Positions 4,884-19,636 of a stretch of DNA of 37,506 bases are shown piece by piece. Within the stretch, counting starts at the first letter, position 1, and every line of letters begins with the position of its first letter. The translations under genes were made by a program, and so were the position numbers. The stretch lies in the NCBI GenBank assembly GCA_011389835.1, contig JAABTO010000012.1, forward strand, positions 1 to 37,506, read 5' to 3'. The notes beneath the pieces are model-generated. The model saw nothing but the letters and a program-made list of their open reading frames with translations. It made no database searches and was not told where the DNA came from. The stretch comes from Desulfotignum sp. (GTDB lineage Bacteria; Desulfobacterota; Desulfobacteria; Desulfobacterales; Desulfobacteraceae).

Positions 4884-5552
4884 TCATGGGCTGCCGTATT
4901 GCGCCAGATAGGCATCGATTTTTTCCATCATGGCATCATCCAGTATCACCCGGCCGTTGATTTCCCGGTTATGGAGAAATGCCGTGATGTCGGCCAGGGT
5001 GACGATGGCATAAATGGGAATGCCCAGGGTGTCGGCCACCTCGGCCAGGGCGTTCTGGTCGGTGGTGCCTTTTTCCTGGCGGTCCACGCTGATGACGATG
5101 CCTTTGACCTTCGGATTGCCGCTGGTTTTCAGGATATCGAGGGATTCTCTGATCGCCTTGCCCGAGGTGATGACATCATCCACCAGGATGAGCCGGGTGC
5201 CGGAAGTCAGGTCCATACCCACGGTGCTGCTTTTGTCGGCATAGGTTTTGGCTTCCTTGCGGTTGAACACATATCCGGTGTCATGCCCCATGCCGGACAG
5301 GGCCATGGTCGTGGATACGCACAAGGGAATGCCTTTGTAGGCCGGGCCGTAAATGCCGTCAAATCCGGTATTGAAATACTGGTGCACGGCTTTGGCGTAA
5401 TGACCCCCCAGCTGAGTGATTTTGCCGCCGGTGTCAAACATGCCGGTATTGATGAAATAGGGGGCGATGCGGCCGCTTTTGAGTTGAAATTCCCCGAATT
5501 TCAGGGCGTTGCAGTCAATCAGAAAGCGGATGAAAGATTCTTTGTCGGTCAT
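4884..5552 (-). CDS. pyrE: Orotate phosphoribosyltransferase
   Basis: PyrE converts orotate and PRPP to orotidine 5'-phosphate, the fifth step of UMP synthesis. The 222-residue product has the N-terminal FGEFQLKSGRIAPYFINTG substrate segment, the flexible catalytic loop around FNRKEAKTYADKSS and the PRPP-binding motif LILVDDVITSGKA (about residues 120-132). Length is normal. It follows pyrK by 61 bases, so pyrD-pyrK-pyrE are very probably one transcript. Confidence 0.95.
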   Translation of the reverse strand: MTDKESFIRFLIDCNALKFGEFQLKSGRIAPYFINTGMFDTGGKITQLGGHYAKAVHQYFNTGFDGIYGPAYKGIPLCVSTTMALSGMGHDTGYVFNRKEAKTYADKSSTVGMDLTSGTRLILVDDVITSGKAIRESLDILKTSGNPKVKGIVISVDRQEKGTTDQNALAEVADTLGIPIYAIVTLADITAFLHNREINGRVILDDAMMEKIDAYLAQYGSP

Positions 5553-5613
5553 GGAGGGGCGTTCCTTTGGATGGTTGAGGTTGTTTTTTAAACCGGTATG
5601 TTGCGGTGCCCTA

Positions 5614-6435
5614 TCACTGGCACCGCCAGGTCACATAGTCGGACAGGGGAACGGCTCGGCCGGATTTGAGCAGGGCCGTGCGGTTGAAATCGGCCATGTT
5701 CCGCAGCTGTGCCGAGTCAAACACCGGCCCATCCGTGCACACCACCCGGTCGCCGCACACACAGGCCCCGCACACCCCGAACCCGCAGCGCATATACCGC
5801 TCCAGCGACACCTGGCAGGGGATGCGGTGAGACTCGCACAAGGTGAACACCGCGTGCATCATCATTTCCGGGCCGCAGGCATACACCATGTCAAACTGGT
5901 GCTGGTTCTGTACCGTCCGGTGCTGAATCTCGGCTGCCAGAAGATCGGTGACAACCCCTTTATGCCCCAGGCTGCCGTCATCCGTGGTGATATGACGGGT
6001 CCTGGCGAACCGGTCCTGAAACAGGATGAATTCTTTTGTCCTTGCCCCGTGGATGAAACACAGGTCCGGGTGGAGTTTTGTCACCAGAGGCGCCAGGGGC
6101 GCCATGCCGCAGCCGCCGGCTACCACGGCCGTATGGGGCGAGGAAACGATATCAAACCCGTTGCCGAACGGTCCTCTGATCCCCACCAGATCCCCGGGGG
6201 CCAGGGCCACAGCCCGGCGGGAAAATCGGCCTTTGGCCTCGATGGTGATGCCGAACCGGGTGGGAGAATAATAGGACAGGCTGTAAGGTTTTTCATCCAC
6301 GCCCGGAAGCCAGAGCATCACAAACTGGCCGGGACGGAAATCAATGGCAAAATCAAAAAATAACGTGGTATAAACGCTGTTGTGTATGGTTATTTCCGCC
6401 ACTTCGATCATCAGAGGGGTGTGTTCGGCGATCAT
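5614..6435 (-). CDS. pyrK: Dihydroorotate dehydrogenase electron-transfer subunit PyrK
   Basis: PyrK carries FAD and a [2Fe-2S] cluster and passes electrons between the FMN of PyrD and NAD+ in class 1B dihydroorotate dehydrogenase. The 273-residue sequence shows an FAD-binding barrel with KPYSLSYYS, an NAD-binding region with GGCGMAPLAPL and YACGPEMM, and a C-terminal Cys motif RCGFGVCGACVCG...VVC holding the [2Fe-2S] cluster. Its ATG overlaps the pyrD stop by 4 bases (ATGA), a sign of translational coupling. It is a paralogue of the reductase module in NqrF, encoded just upstream. Confidence 0.94.
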   Translation of the reverse strand: MIAEHTPLMIEVAEITIHNSVYTTLFFDFAIDFRPGQFVMLWLPGVDEKPYSLSYYSPTRFGITIEAKGRFSRRAVALAPGDLVGIRGPFGNGFDIVSSPHTAVVAGGCGMAPLAPLVTKLHPDLCFIHGARTKEFILFQDRFARTRHITTDDGSLGHKGVVTDLLAAEIQHRTVQNQHQFDMVYACGPEMMMHAVFTLCESHRIPCQVSLERYMRCGFGVCGACVCGDRVVCTDGPVFDSAQLRNMADFNRTALLKSGRAVPLSDYVTWRCQ

Positions 6436-7349
6436 GGGGTGTGCCTCCTGTCATGGGCCGCACCGATAATTTCATCCCGGGTGACATGGTGGTCGGTCAG
6501 CCAGTCGGCCAGTTCCCGGTTCACCTGATCGAACACCTCGATGCCCCGGTACCGCACGGCCGATCCCATGCCCACCAGGGTAGCCCCGGCCATGAACATT
6601 TCCACGGCATCTTCCCCGGTGGTGACGCCGCCCAGCCCGATGATGGGTATGGACACGGCCCGGTAAATATCATACACGCACCGCACGGCAACGGGTTTGA
6701 TCATGGGGCCGGACAAACCCCCCTTTTTGAAGGCCAGTACCGGCATTTGCGCTTCTATGTCAATGATCATGCCGGGTCCGGCCGTGTTGATGGCACAGAT
6801 GGCATCGGCCCCGGCATCTTCACACGCCCGGGCGATTTTGCCGATATCCGGGGCTGCCGGGGTAAGTTTGGCGATCAACGGGACGGCAATCACCCGTTTA
6901 ACCGCATTTGTGACGGCAAAGGCCGCTTTTTCATCCACGCCGAACAGCATGCCGTGGCGGTCGGAATTGGGGCAGGAGATGTTGATTTCAATAAACTCGG
7001 GTCCCTGTTCGGACACGAACCGGGCCACCTGGACGAACTCTTCCAAGGACCCGCCGTAGATGCTGGCATTGAGGGGAAATGTCCGGCCCGACAGTGCCTG
7101 CCATTCCGTATCCATGTGATCATATCCCGGCGTGGGCAGTCCCACGGCGTTGATCATGCCGAATCCCAGGTCGATCACCGTGGGATTGTTGTGACCGTCC
7201 CGGGGCCCGGGTCCGATGGATTTCATGGTTACCAGCCCGCACCCGGCCCTGTGAACCCGTTCCAGAATCCCGGCATTGTTGCCCAGGATGCCCGAGGCCA
7301 AAACCAGGGGGTTTTTCAGCTGCTTTCCAAGAAACGTGACGCTTTCCAT
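6432..7349 (-). CDS. pyrD: Dihydroorotate dehydrogenase catalytic subunit (class 1B)
   Basis: PyrD oxidises dihydroorotate to orotate with FMN. The 305-residue TIM barrel shows LKNPLVLASGILG at the start, KSIGPGPRDGHNNP, INISCPNSDRHGMLFG with the catalytic Cys of class 1B enzymes (class 2 uses Ser), LIAKLTPAAPDI, AINTAGPGMIIDI, GLSGPMIKPVAVR, and the phosphate-binding IIGLGGVTTGEDAVEMFMAGA. Class 1B is confirmed by the adjacent pyrK. The start codon overlaps the nqrF stop (TGATG), tying the pyr genes to the nqr operon. Confidence 0.95.
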   Translation of the reverse strand: MESVTFLGKQLKNPLVLASGILGNNAGILERVHRAGCGLVTMKSIGPGPRDGHNNPTVIDLGFGMINAVGLPTPGYDHMDTEWQALSGRTFPLNASIYGGSLEEFVQVARFVSEQGPEFIEINISCPNSDRHGMLFGVDEKAAFAVTNAVKRVIAVPLIAKLTPAAPDIGKIARACEDAGADAICAINTAGPGMIIDIEAQMPVLAFKKGGLSGPMIKPVAVRCVYDIYRAVSIPIIGLGGVTTGEDAVEMFMAGATLVGMGSAVRYRGIEVFDQVNRELADWLTDHHVTRDEIIGAAHDRRHTP

Positions 7350-8563
7350 CAGCTGAACTTGTCGTAGAAAATCATGTCATCCTCCACGCCCATTTCATAC
7401 AGGTCTTCAATCACCGCATCGATCATGGGCGGCGGACCGCACAGGTAATACTCGATTTCCGTGGGATCCTCATGCTCCTTGAGATAGGAATCGATGAGAT
7501 GGATATGGACAAACCCGGTGAGCCCGGTCCAGTTGTCCTCTTTTTCCGGAGCGGACAGGGCCACATGATAGGTGAAGTTGTCAAACCGTTTTTCCAGGTC
7601 CAAAAATTCCTCATGATAGAACATCTCCTTGACCGACCTGGCCCCGTACCAGAAGGTGATCTTCCGTTTGCTGTCAATGCCCTCCAGCTGATGAAGGATA
7701 TGGCTGCGTAACGGTGCCATGCCGGCCCCGCCGCCGACAAAGCACATTTCCTTGTCCGTGTCTTTTGCCATGAAATCGCCGTAGGGGCCGCTGATTTGCA
7801 CCTTGTCCCCGGGTTTGAGCCCGAAGATGAAAGAGGACCCGAATCCGGGCGGAATGCTTTCCGTGCCCGGCGGGGGGGTGGCAATGCGCACATTGAGTTT
7901 GACAATGTCTTTTTCATGGGGCGGGTTGGCCATGGAATAGGCCCGAAAACCGGGTTTGATCCCTTTGGCGGCCAGATCGAACAGGTTGTATTTTTTCCAT
8001 TCACTCACATATTTGCTGTCAATGTTGAAATCCTTGAAAGTCAGCTCGTATTCCGGCACATCGATCTGAATATAGGCCCCGGCTTCAAATTCGATGGACT
8101 CTTCAGGCTCCAGAACCAGCTCCTTGATAAAGGTGGAGACATTGTCATTGGAGACCACAATGGCATTGACTTTTTTGATGCCGAAAATGGACTCCGGCAC
8201 CTGGATGGCCATGTCCTGTTTGACCTTGAGCTGGCAGGACAGCCGGACGCCTTCCAGTTTTTCCTTTCGGGACAGATGAGCCAGTTCCGTGGGCAGGATG
8301 GCGCCGCCGCCATCGGTCACCTTGCATTTGCACATGGCGCAGGAGCCGGACCCGCCACAGGCGGACGGCAGAAAAATGTCATTGCGGGACAGGGCCGACA
8401 GCAGTGTGGGGTTGCCGGACACGGTGAGGGTATCCTCTTTGCTGTCATTGATGGTGATGGTATGGCTGCCCTGGGTGGTGACTTTGGCTTCCACAAACAG
8501 CAGCACGAACACAAGGACGATGATCACACCGGAAAAAATCAACAGGCTGATAAGGTAAATCAC
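7349..8563 (-). CDS. nqrF: Na+-translocating NADH:quinone reductase subunit F
   Basis: NqrF is the NADH-oxidising input module of the Na+ pump. The 404-residue protein has one N-terminal membrane helix (residues 1-25), a plant-type [2Fe-2S] ferredoxin domain with CGGSGSCAMCKCKV and a later Cys in RLSCQLKV, then an FAD domain (FRAYSMANPPHE) and an NADH domain (VGGGAGMAPLRSHI and YLCGPPPMIDAV). It ends in the usual DMIFYDKFS. Length and order match the family. It is the last nqr gene and is directly followed, with stop and start overlapping, by pyrD. Confidence 0.96.
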   Translation of the reverse strand: MIYLISLLIFSGVIIVLVFVLLFVEAKVTTQGSHTITINDSKEDTLTVSGNPTLLSALSRNDIFLPSACGGSGSCAMCKCKVTDGGGAILPTELAHLSRKEKLEGVRLSCQLKVKQDMAIQVPESIFGIKKVNAIVVSNDNVSTFIKELVLEPEESIEFEAGAYIQIDVPEYELTFKDFNIDSKYVSEWKKYNLFDLAAKGIKPGFRAYSMANPPHEKDIVKLNVRIATPPPGTESIPPGFGSSFIFGLKPGDKVQISGPYGDFMAKDTDKEMCFVGGGAGMAPLRSHILHQLEGIDSKRKITFWYGARSVKEMFYHEEFLDLEKRFDNFTYHVALSAPEKEDNWTGLTGFVHIHLIDSYLKEHEDPTEIEYYLCGPPPMIDAVIEDLYEMGVEDDMIFYDKFS

Positions 8564-8581: not shown

Positions 8582-9190
8582 CTAGAGGGTGATTCCTGAA
8601 AACATCATGAATGTCATGGCCATGAGCCCGGCGATGATCATGATGAAACCGAACCCGTCCAGGCCCTTTGGCACATCCGCGTACCTGACTTTCTTCCGGA
8701 TGGCGGCCAGGGACACGATGGCCAGCATCCACCCGGTGCCGGACCCGGCCCCGAACACCACGGATTCGATAAAGGTGTGATTACGTTCCACTATGAACAG
8801 GGACGTCCCTAAAATGGCGCAGTTCACCGCGATCAGGGGCAGAAACACGCCCAATGTGGCATACAGCAGCGGCGAATACCGGTCGATCACCATTTCTACC
8901 GCCTGAACCATGGCGGCGATCACCGCAATGAATGTGATGAATTTCAGAAAACTCAGGTCCAGTTCCGGAAATCCGGCCCAGGCCAGGGCCCCGGGTGCCA
9001 GCAGTCCATGATAGATCAGCCAGTTCACCGGACTGGTCACCGTTAAAACGAAAATCACGGCCAGCCCCAGGCCGGTGGCGGTTTCAATGGTTTTGGATAC
9101 GGCAATGAACGAACATATGCCCAGGAAATAGGCCAGCAGAATATTGCCGATGAACACGGAATTGATAAACAGACTCAGCAGATCGCCCAT
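8582..9190 (-). CDS. nqrE: Na+-translocating NADH:quinone reductase subunit E
   Basis: NqrE is an integral membrane subunit of the NqrD/RnfA type; the two related subunits hold an Fe centre between them. The 202 residues contain six hydrophobic segments. Typical stretches are [19 protein letters not shown], with a Cys in helix 1 that is an Fe ligand in the family, and [17 protein letters not shown], with the second Cys. It lies 9 bases after nqrD and 18 before nqrF. The NqrE assignment rather than RnfA rests on the operon. Confidence 0.95.
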
Positions 9191-9199
9191 GGCAGCTCC

Positions 9200-9850
9200 T
9201 TATTTTTTCTCGTGGGATATGCCGGGAAGGCTGTTTTTGAGCCAGACCAGCAGGCCGATGACAAAGAACGCCCCCGGTGCCAGCACCATGATGCCCATAT
9301 CCTGGAACCCCATGTCATACACAAACTGGGGAATCACGGAAAACCCGAAAAACTGACCGGACCCCAGGAGTTCGCGCAAAAATGCCACCGCCACCAGGAT
9401 CATACTGTAGCCCAGGCCGTTGGCAATGCCATCCACAAAGGAATCCGCCGGATTGTTGGCCAAAGCGAACGCCTCGGCCCGGCCCAGGATGATGCAGTTG
9501 GTGATGATCAGGCCCACGAAAATGGACAGCTGTTTTGAAATATCATATAAATACGCCTGGAGGATCTGATCGGTGATGATCACCAGAGAGGCAATGACCG
9601 TCAATTCCACGATGATGCGGATGTTTGAGGGGATCAAATGACGCAGGCTGGAGATGATCAAACCGGAAAATCCCGCCACCAGGGTCAAGGCAATGCTCAT
9701 GACCAGGGCGGTGGACATTTTGACCGTGACCGCCAGGGCCGAGCAGATGCCCAATACCTGGTATGCCACCGGGTTTTCCCTCCAGATGCCTTTGACCAGA
9801 ATCTCCTTGTAGTGAGAAAGATCGTTTTGCATGAAAATATCCTTATTCAT
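9200..9850 (-). CDS. nqrD: Na+-translocating NADH:quinone reductase subunit D
   Basis: NqrD is the membrane partner of NqrE. The 216 residues have about six membrane helices. LGICSALAVTV and LIITNCIILGRAEAFALANNP contain the two conserved cysteines that help ligate the intramembrane Fe centre in the family, and DGIANGLGYSMILVAVAFLRELLGSG is a family signature. Its start lies inside the end of nqrC with an 8-base overlap. Confidence 0.95.
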   Translation of the reverse strand: MNKDIFMQNDLSHYKEILVKGIWRENPVAYQVLGICSALAVTVKMSTALVMSIALTLVAGFSGLIISSLRHLIPSNIRIIVELTVIASLVIITDQILQAYLYDISKQLSIFVGLIITNCIILGRAEAFALANNPADSFVDGIANGLGYSMILVAVAFLRELLGSGQFFGFSVIPQFVYDMGFQDMGIMVLAPGAFFVIGLLVWLKNSLPGISHEKK

Positions 9851-10595
9851 CCAACAGGGTTTCTAACTGGGTTTGGGTTCCTTTTTTCTGACGGAAAATG
9901 ATGGAAACCGGTTCATATTGCATCAACGTCTCCTCCAGCCCTTCACTGAGGTATCGTCCGGTAAGGGTGGCGCCGGAAATGCCGTCCACGTAATGGTCCT
10001 GGAGGGATTCAGGCAGGTTCTCGGTTCTGCCTTTGGCAATGCTCACGGAAACCAGCTGATTGTGGGCGTTGAGAATTTTTTTCCCTTTGAAATTGTCCTG
10101 AAACCATTGGCTTTCGATTTCCCCGCCCAGGCCCGGGGTTTCGGAATGGCTGTACACGGAAAATCCGGCCACGGTTTCACCGTCCGCTTCAAACGCCAGG
10201 TACCCATGGATTTTACCCCACAGTCCCCGGGTGCTGATGGGAACGATATAGCCTTGCACCTGTTGATCTGTATGGATCAGGTACAGTTGAAGACTGTCCC
10301 CGGTGGCGCTTCTCAGGATTTGCCCCCTGGGATCGGCATGGACCTCCCGGATATGGGTGTCATAGATGGCCTGAATCTTTTCAGGGGTCATTTTTTCATT
10401 TTCCGGCAACAGGTTGGCGGCTTCCAGCAGGTTTGTTTTCTTGTCCAGAATCCGGTTTTGCTGGTGCAAAGGCTTGAGCATTGTGGCGGCGGAGGTGATC
10501 AGTACACTGAACACGAGAGCGACGGTCAGGGCAAAGAAAACCACATATACCCGGCTATCCTTGAATGATCTGTTGGATTTCTTTTTGTCAGACAT
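9843..10595 (-). CDS. nqrC: Na+-translocating NADH:quinone reductase subunit C (covalent FMN)
   Basis: NqrC carries FMN covalently bound to a threonine and is anchored in the membrane by an N-terminal helix (residues about 16-35). The 250-residue product contains the flavinylation motif DGISGATLTGRY near residue 212, where the second Thr of SGATLT is the usual attachment site. GGEIESQWFQDNFKGKK is also typical. Attachment needs the flavin transferase ApbE; no apbE gene is in this window. It overlaps nqrB by 8 bases at its start and nqrD by 8 at its end. Confidence 0.95.
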   Translation of the reverse strand: MSDKKKSNRSFKDSRVYVVFFALTVALVFSVLITSAATMLKPLHQQNRILDKKTNLLEAANLLPENEKMTPEKIQAIYDTHIREVHADPRGQILRSATGDSLQLYLIHTDQQVQGYIVPISTRGLWGKIHGYLAFEADGETVAGFSVYSHSETPGLGGEIESQWFQDNFKGKKILNAHNQLVSVSIAKGRTENLPESLQDHYVDGISGATLTGRYLSEGLEETLMQYEPVSIIFRQKKGTQTQLETLLDE

Positions 10596-11760: not shown

Positions 11761-13092
11761 CTATCCTTGTTTGTCCTTGTGATGGGTATCCATGCCCTGG
11801 GACAGGATCCGGGTGAGTTCGATCTTGGAGGGGCAGGTAAATGAGCACAGCCCGCACCGGCAGCAGTCCAGCAGTCCCAGTTCCAGGGCCTCTTCTATGT
11901 CGTCGCCGTGCAGGGCCTTCATGATGAAGCTGGGCATCAGGTCCACGGGACAGATATCTTCACAATAGCTGCAGTTGATGCAGGCCCGCTCTTCCCCGTG
12001 CAGGGTACCGTCCAGCTGCACTTCCCGGTCGATCAGACAGGACAGAAATGCTCTGGAAACCGTGGGTTTGTTCAGTCCCGGCCGCAGAAATCCGAACATT
12101 TCGTCTTCCGGTGTATCCGGCAGGATGTTCAGGGTGGTTTCAAAAAAGCCCAGATGGGTGTCCGGGTCCACTTTTCGGCCGTTGAACCGGCCCGTGGTGA
12201 TCAGACTGCCGGCAGGAAAGTTGCCGGCCAGCAGGGGGATGGGCGCGCCCCGGCGTGCAATCATATGGGGTTTTTTGTCGTCCCCCCGGGTGACGGTCAC
12301 CATGGTTTCCACGGGATACCGCCCGGTTTTCAGAAACCGGGCCAGATGTAACAGGTCCTGAACATGGATGTACCAGGCCGTGTTTTCTTCTGGTTTTTCC
12401 TTGATATGGTACAAAATGGCACCGGGGTTCCAGGCTGGATAGGTATCAGATACCTGGTGGGTGATCAAGTGTCTGACCGGGTTCAGTTGTTCCATGGAAC
12501 TGGTCCGGGCCGCCACAATGATCCGGTCGCAGAACCGCTTGAGCACGGCCAGACCGAATTCGAACTGCGGGATATTGTTTTCAAGCACCTGTCCCGGATG
12601 AGGGGAAAACAGGTCGTTGCCGTTGAGACAGACAATGATCAGGGGTGGGGCGGTTCCGCTGTCCGCCGTGTCTCTGGCCGGCAGCTGGCGCAGGGACTGC
12701 CATACACCGCCCTGTTTCAGCCGGTCGATCAGTTCCTGGTCGGGCAGTTGGACCAGGTCTGCCGAAGTTACCGGCCCAAACTCAACAAAGTCGTCCATGC
12801 TGTCCAGGGCAATCACCACCTCAAGCAGGCGGCGGCGGGCACCGAAGCAGATCTGTTTCACTGTGCCGGTTCCCGGGGACAGATACTGGATGGCCGGGTC
12901 CCGTTTGTCACAGAACAGCGGGGTGCCGGTTTTGACCGCCTCTTTTTCCTTGACCAGCAGTTTGGGCCGGATATGGGGGATGTCCTGGGCGGAAACGCCC
13001 ACCGTGGCGGGTCGGGTAAGCCGGATGACACTGGTATCCGGCATGCCGGCCAGTTTCAGTTTAAAGCCTTTGGAAGGTGCAAGAGTTTCCAT
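11761..13092 (-). CDS. nqrA: Na+-translocating NADH:quinone reductase subunit A with two Cys4 (ferredoxin-like) motifs
   Basis: NqrA is the peripheral subunit linked to quinone reduction. The 443 residues follow the NqrA plan: an N-terminal KGFKLKLAG and barrel-sandwich region, a central Rossmann-like part, an SLBB-like region with GSLITTGRFNGRKV, and the C-terminal domain. That last domain reads CINCSYCEDICPVDL and, about 40 residues on, CCRCGLCSFTCPSKIEL. These are two complete CxxCxxCxxxCP motifs expected to bind two [4Fe-4S] clusters, as in RnfC. As I recall the Vibrio protein, these cysteines are mostly lost there. It is the promoter-proximal gene of the operon. The start has only a weak ribosome site. 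Confidence 0.92.
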   Translation of the reverse strand: METLAPSKGFKLKLAGMPDTSVIRLTRPATVGVSAQDIPHIRPKLLVKEKEAVKTGTPLFCDKRDPAIQYLSPGTGTVKQICFGARRRLLEVVIALDSMDDFVEFGPVTSADLVQLPDQELIDRLKQGGVWQSLRQLPARDTADSGTAPPLIIVCLNGNDLFSPHPGQVLENNIPQFEFGLAVLKRFCDRIIVAARTSSMEQLNPVRHLITHQVSDTYPAWNPGAILYHIKEKPEENTAWYIHVQDLLHLARFLKTGRYPVETMVTVTRGDDKKPHMIARRGAPIPLLAGNFPAGSLITTGRFNGRKVDPDTHLGFFETTLNILPDTPEDEMFGFLRPGLNKPTVSRAFLSCLIDREVQLDGTLHGEERACINCSYCEDICPVDLMPSFIMKALHGDDIEEALELGLLDCCRCGLCSFTCPSKIELTRILSQGMDTHHKDKQG

Positions 13093-13283: not shown

Positions 13284-13386
13284 TTTCAACAGAACCGGTT
13301 TTTAACCTTGATTTTACCATCCGGTTTATTATAGAAGAAAAACTTATCATAAAACCATTTTAAGACGTTGAGGATTGGTGAAACTG

Positions 13387-13776
13387 ATGGATCAGAACGC
13401 GATTAAAAACATTTTCACCCGGGAATTCTGTGACACGCTGCTGCCTCCCCATACCACTGACCGGTTTTTCGAGGCACTGTATGGGGATGTGTCGGAAGGG
13501 GCTTATGATATCCGTCTGAATTGCGAGTCCCTCAGACCCGGAACCGTGGAACTGGGGTTTCACCTGACCCAGCGGCCCGGCAAATGCCTGGTGTGCAGCC
13601 TCACTTATGGATTGCCCAACGTGTTTGCAAGGCATCCACTCATCGATATCCAGGGCATGATTCAGAAAATCAAGGAGGCCGGGGTCCCGGTCAAGGACTG
13701 GCGCCTGGGACAGACCATCGAGAAAAAAAGATCTCTGCATGTGATTCCTTTTTATATCGATACGATGACGTCCTGA
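13387..13776 (+). CDS. Conserved small protein of unknown function
   Basis: A 129-residue soluble protein from ATG at 13387 (MDQNAIKNIFTREF). The ORF track starts 12 bases earlier at TTG. GGTGA just before the ATG and GAGG further upstream leave the exact start open. It contains DRFFEALYGDVSEGAYDIRL and RPGKCLVCSLTYGLPNVFARHP, with CLVC as a possible metal or redox pair. It has no signal peptide or membrane helix. From memory, similar sequences occur in Desulfobacterales and carry a misleading 'pancreas/duodenum homeobox' name; there is no homeodomain here. It is divergent from nqrA and convergent with the cyclophilin gene. Confidence 0.75.
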   Translation: MDQNAIKNIFTREFCDTLLPPHTTDRFFEALYGDVSEGAYDIRLNCESLRPGTVELGFHLTQRPGKCLVCSLTYGLPNVFARHPLIDIQGMIQKIKEAGVPVKDWRLGQTIEKKRSLHVIPFYIDTMTS

Positions 13777-13868: not shown

Positions 13869-14399
13869 CTAAGCTTTGGACAGTTTGGGAAATTTTTTGT
13901 TCAATGTCTTGTTCCATTCATCCAGCTGAGGCTTGATCTTTTTGAACAAAGATCCCACATTCCCTTGGATGGTGACGCTTTCAATGGTATCCCCCTGGGC
14001 GATGCTGTCCACGACCTTCTGGTCGGCGTCGCCTTCAACCACGCCGAAGACCGTGTGCATGCCGTCCAGATGCGGTGTGGGACCATGGGTGATGAAAAAC
14101 TGGGACCCGTTGGTGCCGGGCCCGGCATTGGCCATGGACAGAATTCCCGGCCGGTCATGTTTGAGATCTTTTTTGCACTCATTTTCAAACTCGTATCCCG
14201 GTCCGCCCATGCCGTTGCCGAACGGGCATCCGCCCTGGATCATGAAGTCATTGATCACCCGGTGAAATTTGAGTCCGTTGTAATATTCCCGGTTGGCCAG
14301 GTTGACAAAACTGCCGCAGGTGACAGGGGTTTGATCGGCAAACAGTTTCAGACGGATGGTTCCTTTGCTGGTTTCCATGACAGCGGTTAAATCAGGCAT
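13869..14399 (-). CDS. Cyclophilin-type peptidyl-prolyl cis-trans isomerase
   Basis: Catalyses proline isomerisation during protein folding. The 176 residues carry the cyclophilin core: [39 protein letters not shown], with the catalytic Arg in FHRV and the QGG segment, then [36 protein letters not shown]. There is no signal peptide, so it is cytoplasmic. The C-terminal 25 residues ([25 protein letters not shown]) form a Lys-rich extension. It stands alone, with AT-rich sequence upstream. Confidence 0.94.
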
Positions 14400-17674: not shown

Positions 17675-19636
17675 TCAGGCCATGGCCCGGCGGTCGTTCA
17701 TATCCACCAGCACGCGTTCCCGGGCCTTGTCAATGCCCAGTTCCCGGCGTTTTTTGTCGATATGGGCGATCATCAATCTGGCGATTTCGATCGGGTCGGT
17801 GGCCATGCCCCATTTGCCGTATCCCTGTTTTTCCAGTCCGTTGAACAAGAGATCATGGAACCGGGTGCCGGCCAGGGCGGGAAAACCCACACCAAACACC
17901 GTGTAGACCCCGGACGACACAAAATACTGACCAATGGCCAGGGCTTTTTCGCTCATCCACTCCGGTGCGCACCCGGCCGCAGGCAGATCGGCAATGCTGT
18001 TGCCCAGGCCGCCGGCCTTGACCATGGCGGATGCGGCAATCAGAATCCGGGTGTTGTCCACGCAGGATCCCAGACCCAGCACCGGGGGCATGCCCACGGT
18101 CTCACACACCTCGGACAGTCCCGGTCCGGCCAGGGCCCCGGCTTCAGGGGTCAGAAAGCCGGCTTTGGCCAGAGCGATCTGAGAGCATCCGGTCTGAAGC
18201 ACCAGCACATCGTTTCTAATCAGCTCTCTGACCAGTTCCACATGCACGGAATCTTGCTGAACTTTGGGGTTGGTGCATCCCACCACCCCGGCCACGCCCC
18301 GGATCCGGCCGTTGATGATGTTGTCGTTCAGCGGGGAGTAAGATCCCCGGAACGTGCCGCCCAGCATATATTCGATGTATTCATGGGAAAAACCGTGAAT
18401 GCCTTTCTGGACCTGGTTGGGAATCTGAACCGGTTTGCTTCGGGACCCGAACCGGGAGATGGCCTTGATCAGGACTTCATCCGTACATGCCCGGGGATCG
18501 GTTTCATCGAATTGAATATGAGTGGCGCCCTCGATGTGTGCCCGGTCGCTGGTGGTGATCAGATGCGTGTCATAACACTGGGCCACCTGGGCCAGTCCCT
18601 GTTTGATGCACTGGATATCCACCACCATGGCATCCACCGCGCCCGTGACCAGGACCGCTTCCGTGGACGAGAAGTTGCCGGCATGGGGGATCCCGTGCCG
18701 GGACATCATCTCCGCACCGGAGCAGCACATGCCCACCAGGTTGATGCCGGCGGCCCCCTTGTCTTTGGCGGCCTGGATGAAGAACGGTTCGTTCACCGCC
18801 GCCAGCATGCCTTCGAACATGGCCGGTTCGTGACCGTGGACAATCACGTTCACATGGTCTTCCTTGAGAACGCCCATGTTCACCTCCGCCAGAATCGGAG
18901 ACGGCGTGCCGAACATGATGTCGGACAGTTCCGTGGCCACCATGGACCCTCCCCATCCGTCGGCCAGGGCCGTACGGCTGATCTGTTTCATCAGGTGGGC
19001 ATAATCCTGGTCGCACCCGATATGGGTCCGGCTCATCATCTCCATGACCTCTTTCATGGCGCCCCGGGGGACGATGCCGTCCTTGCGCCACAGTTCCAGA
19101 GTGGCAGGCGGTACCCGTTTCATGAACGGCATTTCACCGTCTACATTGGAAAAGGTCTTTTCCAGTTCGTCGCACAGATCTTTTGCCACCTCTTCAATAA
19201 GGCGGTCTTCGGTGTCAATACCCAGCTCCTGTGCAATCTGTTGCAGTTTGAGGGGGTTGGCAATGGTAAAGTCGGTAACATTTTTTTCGACAATGCCTTT
19301 GAACAGGTGAAGGATGTGCTGGCCATGGTCATTGTGGGACGCCGAGCCCGTGGCCACATTCCGAGCCAGGTTGCGGGCCGTGATGGTATCTATGGTGGCA
19401 CCGCAGATACCGACTTTCTTGTACGGGTCCCGGGGATTCAGGCGGCAGGGTCCCATGAAACAATGCTTGCAGCAGGCCGACTCCACGCCGATGGGGCAGG
19501 CTTTCATGTCCACGGCCCGGTCCAGGTTGAGAATGACGCCGTCTTTACGGGCTTTTTCCAGCATCTGGCGGGTGGCTTCACATGTGGTCCGTTCTGATGC
19601 CGGCACCTGTTTGGTGACAGGGATATCCTTGGGCAT
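17675..19636 (-). CDS. cooS: Anaerobic carbon monoxide dehydrogenase catalytic subunit
   Basis: CooS oxidises CO to CO2 (or the reverse) at a [Ni-4Fe-4S] C-cluster in a cytoplasmic homodimer. The 653 residues contain Cys47 and Cys55 (D-cluster) and Cys56, Cys59, Cys64, Cys78 (B-cluster), the same spacing as the Rhodospirillum enzyme. The C-cluster ligands are all visible: His in VHGHEPAMFEG and Cys in GMCCSGAEM, VDIQCIKQ, VVGCTNPK, LQTGCSQIA and LGSCVDNTR. The start has an AGAGGAG ribosome site. No cooF, cooC or acetyl-CoA synthase gene is adjacent, so the electron partner and nickel-loading factor must be elsewhere. Upstream neighbours are an unrelated-looking redox/metal gene trio. Confidence 0.97.
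   Translation of the reverse strand: MPKDIPVTKQVPASERTTCEATRQMLEKARKDGVILNLDRAVDMKACPIGVESACCKHCFMGPCRLNPRDPYKKVGICGATIDTITARNLARNVATGSASHNDHGQHILHLFKGIVEKNVTDFTIANPLKLQQIAQELGIDTEDRLIEEVAKDLCDELEKTFSNVDGEMPFMKRVPPATLELWRKDGIVPRGAMKEVMEMMSRTHIGCDQDYAHLMKQISRTALADGWGGSMVATELSDIMFGTPSPILAEVNMGVLKEDHVNVIVHGHEPAMFEGMLAAVNEPFFIQAAKDKGAAGINLVGMCCSGAEMMSRHGIPHAGNFSSTEAVLVTGAVDAMVVDIQCIKQGLAQVAQCYDTHLITTSDRAHIEGATHIQFDETDPRACTDEVLIKAISRFGSRSKPVQIPNQVQKGIHGFSHEYIEYMLGGTFRGSYSPLNDNIINGRIRGVAGVVGCTNPKVQQDSVHVELVRELIRNDVLVLQTGCSQIALAKAGFLTPEAGALAGPGLSEVCETVGMPPVLGLGSCVDNTRILIAASAMVKAGGLGNSIADLPAAGCAPEWMSEKALAIGQYFVSSGVYTVFGVGFPALAGTRFHDLLFNGLEKQGYGKWGMATDPIEIARLMIAHIDKKRRELGIDKARERVLVDMNDRRAMA

Follow-up and report, generated by a model that had tools for sequence, protein, structure and literature searches.

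Two conserved Cys4 motifs in NqrA of Desulfotignum and other marine sulfate reducers: predicted [4Fe-4S] clusters in an NADH:quinone reductase

The closest described counterparts of the complex considered here are the Na+-NQR of Vibrio cholerae (7xk3, 8a1u and relatives), the Rnf complexes of C. tetanomorphum (7zc6), A. vinelandii (8ahx), and A. woodii (9eri), and the Tol2-type Rnf of Desulfobacteraceae. For V. cholerae, the quinone-pocket residues have been named as NqrB K54, E144, E157, and G158 and NqrA R372 (PMC12779168, PMC9325719), with R372 facing NqrB E157 (PMC12779168), and the loop 330-375/C-terminal domain of NqrA anchors this subunit to NqrB (PMC9325719). As late as 2025, reviews and structural studies describe NqrA as lacking redox cofactors and any assignable function (PMC12174285, PMC11889175, PMC9588780), and the genome paper of Desulfotignum phosphitoxidans calls its Nqr identical with Vibrio Nqr. 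In those open-access papers on NqrA and [4Fe-4S] clusters that were read, and in that on the A. woodii Rnf structure, NqrA is either presented as cofactor-free or not discussed; an earlier mention in other papers, those in subscription journals included, is possible. RnfC occupies the equivalent subunit position in Rnf, and in C. tetanomorphum the distance from riboflavin to the first RnfC cluster is 11.7 Å (PMC9588780). The RnfC of the Tol2-type complex was reported to be without NADH and SLBB domains, and for this kind of Rnf in Desulfobacula toluolica an acceptor different from NAD was held to be necessary (PMC5109826). With respect to origin, Reyes-Prieto et al. stated that NqrA lost the cluster cysteines, derived NQR from an RnfB loss that disabled RnfC within Chlorobi/Bacteroidetes, and called the early-branching NQR of Desulfobacteraceae anomalous, inferring a transfer from Chlorobi/Bacteroidetes (PMC4014512).

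The window, i.e., the whole stretch of 37,506 nucleotides of Desulfotignum sp. that was analyzed, carries a complete nqrABCDEF operon running from 13092 down to 7349, in which every gene was assigned by NCBIfam and Pfam. When the interval 11761-13092 is read on the plus strand, its frame is interrupted by stops. The features are as follows:

11761..13092, minus strand: nqrA (443 aa, ATG start), opening the nqr operon and of the eight-cysteine (Cys8) type
12802..13074, minus strand: barrel-sandwich hybrid domain at the N-terminus of NqrA, residues 7-97 (Pfam PF05896 NQRA_N, E 1.7e-22)
12319..12741, minus strand: NqrA second alpha/beta domain, residues 118-258 (Pfam PF24836 NQRA_2nd, E 1.2e-20)
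11986..11988, minus strand: Arg369 of NqrA, counterpart of the quinone-pocket residue NqrA-R372 of V. cholerae
11947..11982, minus strand: first Cys4 motif of NqrA, CINCSYCEDICP, residues 371-382
11830..11865, minus strand: second Cys4 motif of NqrA, CCRCGLCSFTCP, residues 410-421, with ligands C410, C413, C416, and C420
10588..11748, minus strand: nqrB (386 aa), FMN-attachment Thr (TGAT) present
9843..10595, minus strand: nqrC (250 aa), SGAT flavinylation motif
9200..9850, minus strand: nqrD (216 aa), both membrane [2Fe-2S] cysteines
8582..9190, minus strand: nqrE (202 aa), both membrane [2Fe-2S] cysteines
7349..8563, minus strand: nqrF (404 aa), input subunit (NADH/FAD/[2Fe-2S]) in which the four cluster cysteines are present (NCBIfam TIGR01941, 554 bits)

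The host genome is a metagenome-assembled genome (MAG) of 405 contigs and 3.17 Mb with a completeness of 88%; its nearest named relatives by NqrA are Desulfotignum MAGs with 83% identity. It also contains apbE and, on contig C338 (663-4701), an Rnf cluster that includes a gene resembling those of c-type cytochromes and whose RnfC has all eight cysteines and no FMN loop, as in the Tol2 type. Within the window, pyrD, pyrK, and pyrE follow nqrF directly on the minus strand (4884-7349), the pyrD start lying at the nqrF stop (7349), an adjacency through which the oxidation of dihydroorotate could be coupled to the Na+ pump by way of NADH. Upstream, a divergent 133-aa open reading frame with no Pfam match (13375-13776, plus strand) adjoins a cyclophilin gene (13869-14399), and a member of the prismane/CO dehydrogenase family, either of the CooS type or a hybrid-cluster protein, is encoded at 17675-19636 on the minus strand.

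The operon shares with V. cholerae Na+-NQR the gene order ABCDEF, the NqrF input, the membrane cofactor ligands, the quinone-pocket residues, and the N-terminal and middle domains of NqrA; the difference lies in the cysteines, of which V. cholerae NqrA, with no cofactor bound, has two of eight and Desulfotignum NqrA all eight. The two motifs had been quoted exactly in the first-pass annotation, and its statement that Vibrio-type NqrA is nearly devoid of these cysteines while RnfC has them was borne out: of the ligand cysteines, V. cholerae NqrA retains the last two and none of the first six, as do the Klebsiella and Aeromonas proteins, one is left in Ruegeria and Phocaeicola and two in Bacteroides, and all eight are present in RnfC. 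This NqrA resembles RnfC in having two CX2CX2CX3C motifs within a ferredoxin-like domain at the C-terminus. RnfC, however, binds FMN and NAD (GLGGAxFPT and NGxECEP), and the second domain of this NqrA possesses neither the FMN loop nor the NGxECEP motif; across entries, loop and ECEP motif were found in none of 113 Cys8 NqrA (some genomes repeated) versus nine of nine canonical RnfC. The AlphaFold model of the whole NqrA chain reached a TM score of 0.87 to V. cholerae NqrA and of 0.68 to 0.70 to RnfC, the Fe-S domain having pLDDT values mostly below 50 when predicted from 17 sequences and of about 55 to 60 from 52 sequences, a confidence too low for reading off cluster geometry. In profile searches, NqrA matched NCBIfam NF003761 over its full length with 425 bits, just below the cut-off of 450, which some Cys8 relatives pass, and TIGR01936 with 239 bits (cut-off, 321); the equivalog threshold is therefore not reached, such a cut-off being a curated score that involves no mechanistic criterion. 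Pfam dicluster models scored at or just under their cut-offs (e.g., 27.1/27, 25.6/25.5, and 22.6/22.2) and exceeded them in one relative, L104.

The ligand set of NqrA comprises C371, C374, C377, C381, C410, C413, C416, and C420 and follows the RnfC-type pattern for two [4Fe-4S] clusters, C411 being an additional, nonconserved cysteine. All eight are invariant across 17 relatives of the same order and in an alignment of 60 diverse sequences that are 25 to 82% identical to this NqrA, where they account for eight of the 20 invariant columns. Since the other six cysteines (61, 82, 155, 188, 352, and 411) vary in the same 60 sequences, the motif is conserved beyond chance. The frequency of the trait was determined with a profile that ends ahead of the Fe-S domain and thus avoids selecting for the motif; it detected NqrA in 138 of 292 Desulfobacterales genomes. 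Ninety matches were followed to the C-terminus, 30 of them returned automatically and 60 picked over the score range, the lowest included. All eight cysteines were found in 83 of these, one had seven plus masked bases, one, probably because of a frameshift, had six and a divergent C-terminal sequence, and the other five were complete proteins of the Vibrio type with one or two cysteines. The comparison of NqrA C-termini that the first-pass annotation had proposed thus sets one or two cysteines in Vibrio, Klebsiella, Aeromonas, Ruegeria, and Bacteroides against eight in 83 of 90 Desulfobacterales proteins. Consequently, the Desulfotignum genome is not special in this respect: Cys8 NqrA characterizes a whole clade, a large one, of sulfate-reducing bacteria from marine habitats. 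At least three genomes (G025, G399, and G456) encode both a Cys8 and a Vibrio-type cysteine-poor NqrA and provide a natural within-cell comparison of the two enzymes.

A set of 80 named Cys8 loci, found by patterns that require the cysteines and therefore informative on taxonomic spread and not on frequency, belonged without exception to Desulfobacterota or to unassigned Proteobacteria/Deltaproteobacteria MAGs, cultured strains included. Mis-assembly or contamination was ruled out, as the motif recurs in cultured Desulfospira joergensenii, Desulfobacter vibrioformis, and Desulfonema magnum. No relatives were found in viral contigs scanned with the NqrA alignment, and RsxC was the sole match of the dicluster consensus in plasmids. 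At locus L143 (G013, contig C8), the middle domain of NqrA has extra insertions and about 3 kb separate nqrA from nqrB.

Several features mark the complex as an NQR. NqrF contains the [2Fe-2S] cysteines together with the FAD and NAD domains, and NqrB retains the quinone-pocket residues K54, E144, E157, and G158 (V. cholerae numbering). Nearly every NQR compared, whether Cys8, Cys-less, or hybrid, has the same pocket residues, the exceptions being Q at 54 in L104 and A at 158 in three Cys-less sequences. RnfD is without E157 and mostly without K54. On the NqrA side, the equivalent of Arg369 is invariant in all NQR types compared and missing from RnfC. As the RnfC FMN/NAD motifs are absent and the quinone-pocket residues, NqrF cysteines, and other cofactor ligands are kept, we predict that the Cys8 complex is a genuine NADH:quinone reductase that has two additional clusters, and not a misnamed Rnf. 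Tol2-type Rnf likewise has kept the clusters and lost the FMN/NAD output site, but it is of the RnfC/RnfD type, without NqrF and the NQR quinone-pocket residues. Given the absent FMN/ECEP motifs and the present pocket residues, the clusters of Cys8 NqrA appear to have been kept without the NAD/FMN output site of RnfC but together with a quinone site.

Two MAGs of one family, from the same phylum as the Desulfotignum genome and the only two of their order among the genomes examined, carry a hybrid arrangement (G112, loci L134/L242; G077, loci L133/L243). In L134 (contig C106, 2143-7621), the A subunit is followed by NQR-type B, C, D, E, and F, and in L133 (contig C299, 893-4722) by NQR-type B, C, and D, where the contig ends. 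These hybrids resemble the Desulfotignum NQR in their Cys8 A subunit, NQR-type B/C/D, and equivalent of R369, and the NqrF scores above its own cut-off (311 versus 295). The difference is that the A subunit is RnfC-like: its matches to two Pfam models, RnfC_N and the FMN-binding domain of Nuo51, lie above the cut-offs, and it scores 221 bits as RnfC versus 124 as NqrA. It combines the eight cysteines with the NQR Arg and Lys. Judged from these sequences, the hybrid looks like a stage after the gain of NqrF and the quinone pocket and before the loss of FMN, represented by two MAGs on a long branch.

Trees were calculated from concatenated NqrB, NqrD, and NqrE with RnfD, RnfE, and RnfA (about 790 columns), excluding NqrA/RnfC, and rooted on Rnf; Chlorobi, Chlamydiae, and Planctomycetes lay outside the comparisons and trees. 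The Cys8 NQR formed a clade (support 99/99) that was sister to the Cys-less NQR (97/93), and the hybrid L134 branched below both (100/100). In the approximately unbiased (AU) test, a grouping of the hybrid with Cys8 was rejected (p 0.0006), while groupings of Cys8 with the Bacteroides or the proteobacterial lineage alone were not (p 0.059 and 0.089); either alternative would most simply require further cysteine losses, not gains. Because eight cysteines are found in RnfC and the hybrid as well as in the Cys8 clade, the pattern is explained most simply if the cysteines were lost once, on the branch of the Cys-less NQR. The eight cysteines of NqrA are thus probably an ancestral retention. The first-pass annotation had suggested an intermediate between Rnf and Nqr, which is supported if it is taken to mean that an ancestral character was retained, with Cys8 sister to Cys-less and a more Rnf-like NQR below in trees that are free of NqrA. 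Cys8 NqrA does not fit descent from Cys-less Bacteroidetes, in a comparison made without Chlorobi.

With all eight ligands in place, NqrA very probably binds [4Fe-4S] clusters. In the usual ferredoxin pairing, each cluster is held by three cysteines of one motif and the last cysteine of the other. By this pairing, cluster 1 would be coordinated by C371/374/377/420 and cluster 2 by C381/410/413/416. Electrons from NADH would enter at NqrF and pass via its [2Fe-2S] cluster, the [2Fe-2S] cluster of NqrD/E, the FMN of NqrC, the FMN of NqrB, and riboflavin to menaquinone in NqrB. The proximal cluster (C371/374/377/420) would lie beside the quinone pocket, C371 being located two residues past R369, and the distal cluster (C381/410/413/416) would lead toward the cytosol, so that a soluble one-electron carrier would swap electrons with the quinone site through both clusters. 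A cytosolic relay is the most likely role because FMN and NAD binding has been lost, and a route through both clusters is favored since both are equally conserved. We consider a redox relay between the NqrA clusters and a cytosolic carrier to have about an even chance of being correct, and we are equally divided on the proposal as a whole, namely, an early-diverging Na+-NQR with the NqrA clusters serving as a cytosolic relay at the riboflavin/quinone end. A proximal cluster near the quinone site might short-circuit the pump, which the relay would need to prevent. One carrier common to the Cys8 NQR and the Rnf of this genome that lacks the FMN loop is a matter of speculation.

A broader reading, which we regard as doubtful, is a three-way Na+ pump of Desulfobacterota on which a low-potential carrier of the cytosol, for example ferredoxin, would meet NADH and menaquinone via the NqrA clusters and which arose from Rnf by gain of NqrF and the quinone pocket, followed by loss of FMN and then of the clusters. 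Its path would run through an Rnf still equipped with clusters and FMN, as in the L134-type hybrid, and would replace the published route by RnfB loss.

The search across the order for a conserved electron-partner gene beside the nqr operon found none: pyrD-pyrK-pyrE lie downstream in 16 loci only, and the cyclophilin gene and the small divergent gene are kept upstream in about 30. This absence also suits two roles that need no soluble carrier. In the first, the proximal cluster would act as an electron buffer that stores one electron and speeds the two-electron reduction of menaquinone without exchange with a soluble carrier. The intact quinone pocket and the start of the first motif two residues from R369, the counterpart of V. 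cholerae R372 (PMC12779168), agree with such a buffer; we nevertheless hold it to be unlikely, as it leaves the equally strict conservation of the distal cluster unexplained. In the second, both clusters would be bound solely to stabilize the C-terminal domain and the contact through which it docks on NqrB. Conservation of every ligand and the anchoring function of the V. cholerae counterpart domain (PMC9325719) are consistent with this role, which is rather improbable all the same: NqrA subunits of the Vibrio and Bacteroides types persist without clusters, which indicates that folding does not require the clusters, and clusters placed as in RnfC would be within electron-transfer distance of riboflavin.

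Reacquisition of the Fe-S domain through a swap of the RnfC C-terminus, instead of inheritance, would account for the equal ligand spacing in RnfC and Cys8 NqrA and could have drawn on the rnf operons also present in these genomes. It is disfavored to the point of being highly improbable because the Fe-S domain bears the NQR-specific residues G366, R369, and K423, which are common to Cys8, Cys-less, and hybrid NQR; R369 is missing from all RnfC compared, and K423 from all except the Tol2-like L140. That the operon encodes a wrongly annotated variant of Rnf and no NQR at all, as its NqrA scores under the equivalog cut-offs and its rnfC-like cysteines might suggest, deserves next to no credence, given that NqrF, the NqrB quinone pocket, and the order ABCDEF are all those of an NQR, that the A to F genes are all accounted for and no RnfB polyferredoxin gene is in the operon, NqrF standing in place of the RnfB of Rnf complexes, and that a separate rnf cluster is found elsewhere in the genome.

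The clade-wide occurrence of intact motifs contradicts the general statement that NqrA is cofactor-free, and it gives this subunit a possible function that is directly testable. Cys8 NQR may preserve an evolutionary step between Rnf and Nqr, Cys8 and hybrid NQR being surviving steps of the Rnf-to-NQR transition. For the organisms themselves, Cys8 pumps with an extra electron connection may be at work, and the Cys8 NQR thus bears on the energy conservation of abundant marine sulfate reducers.
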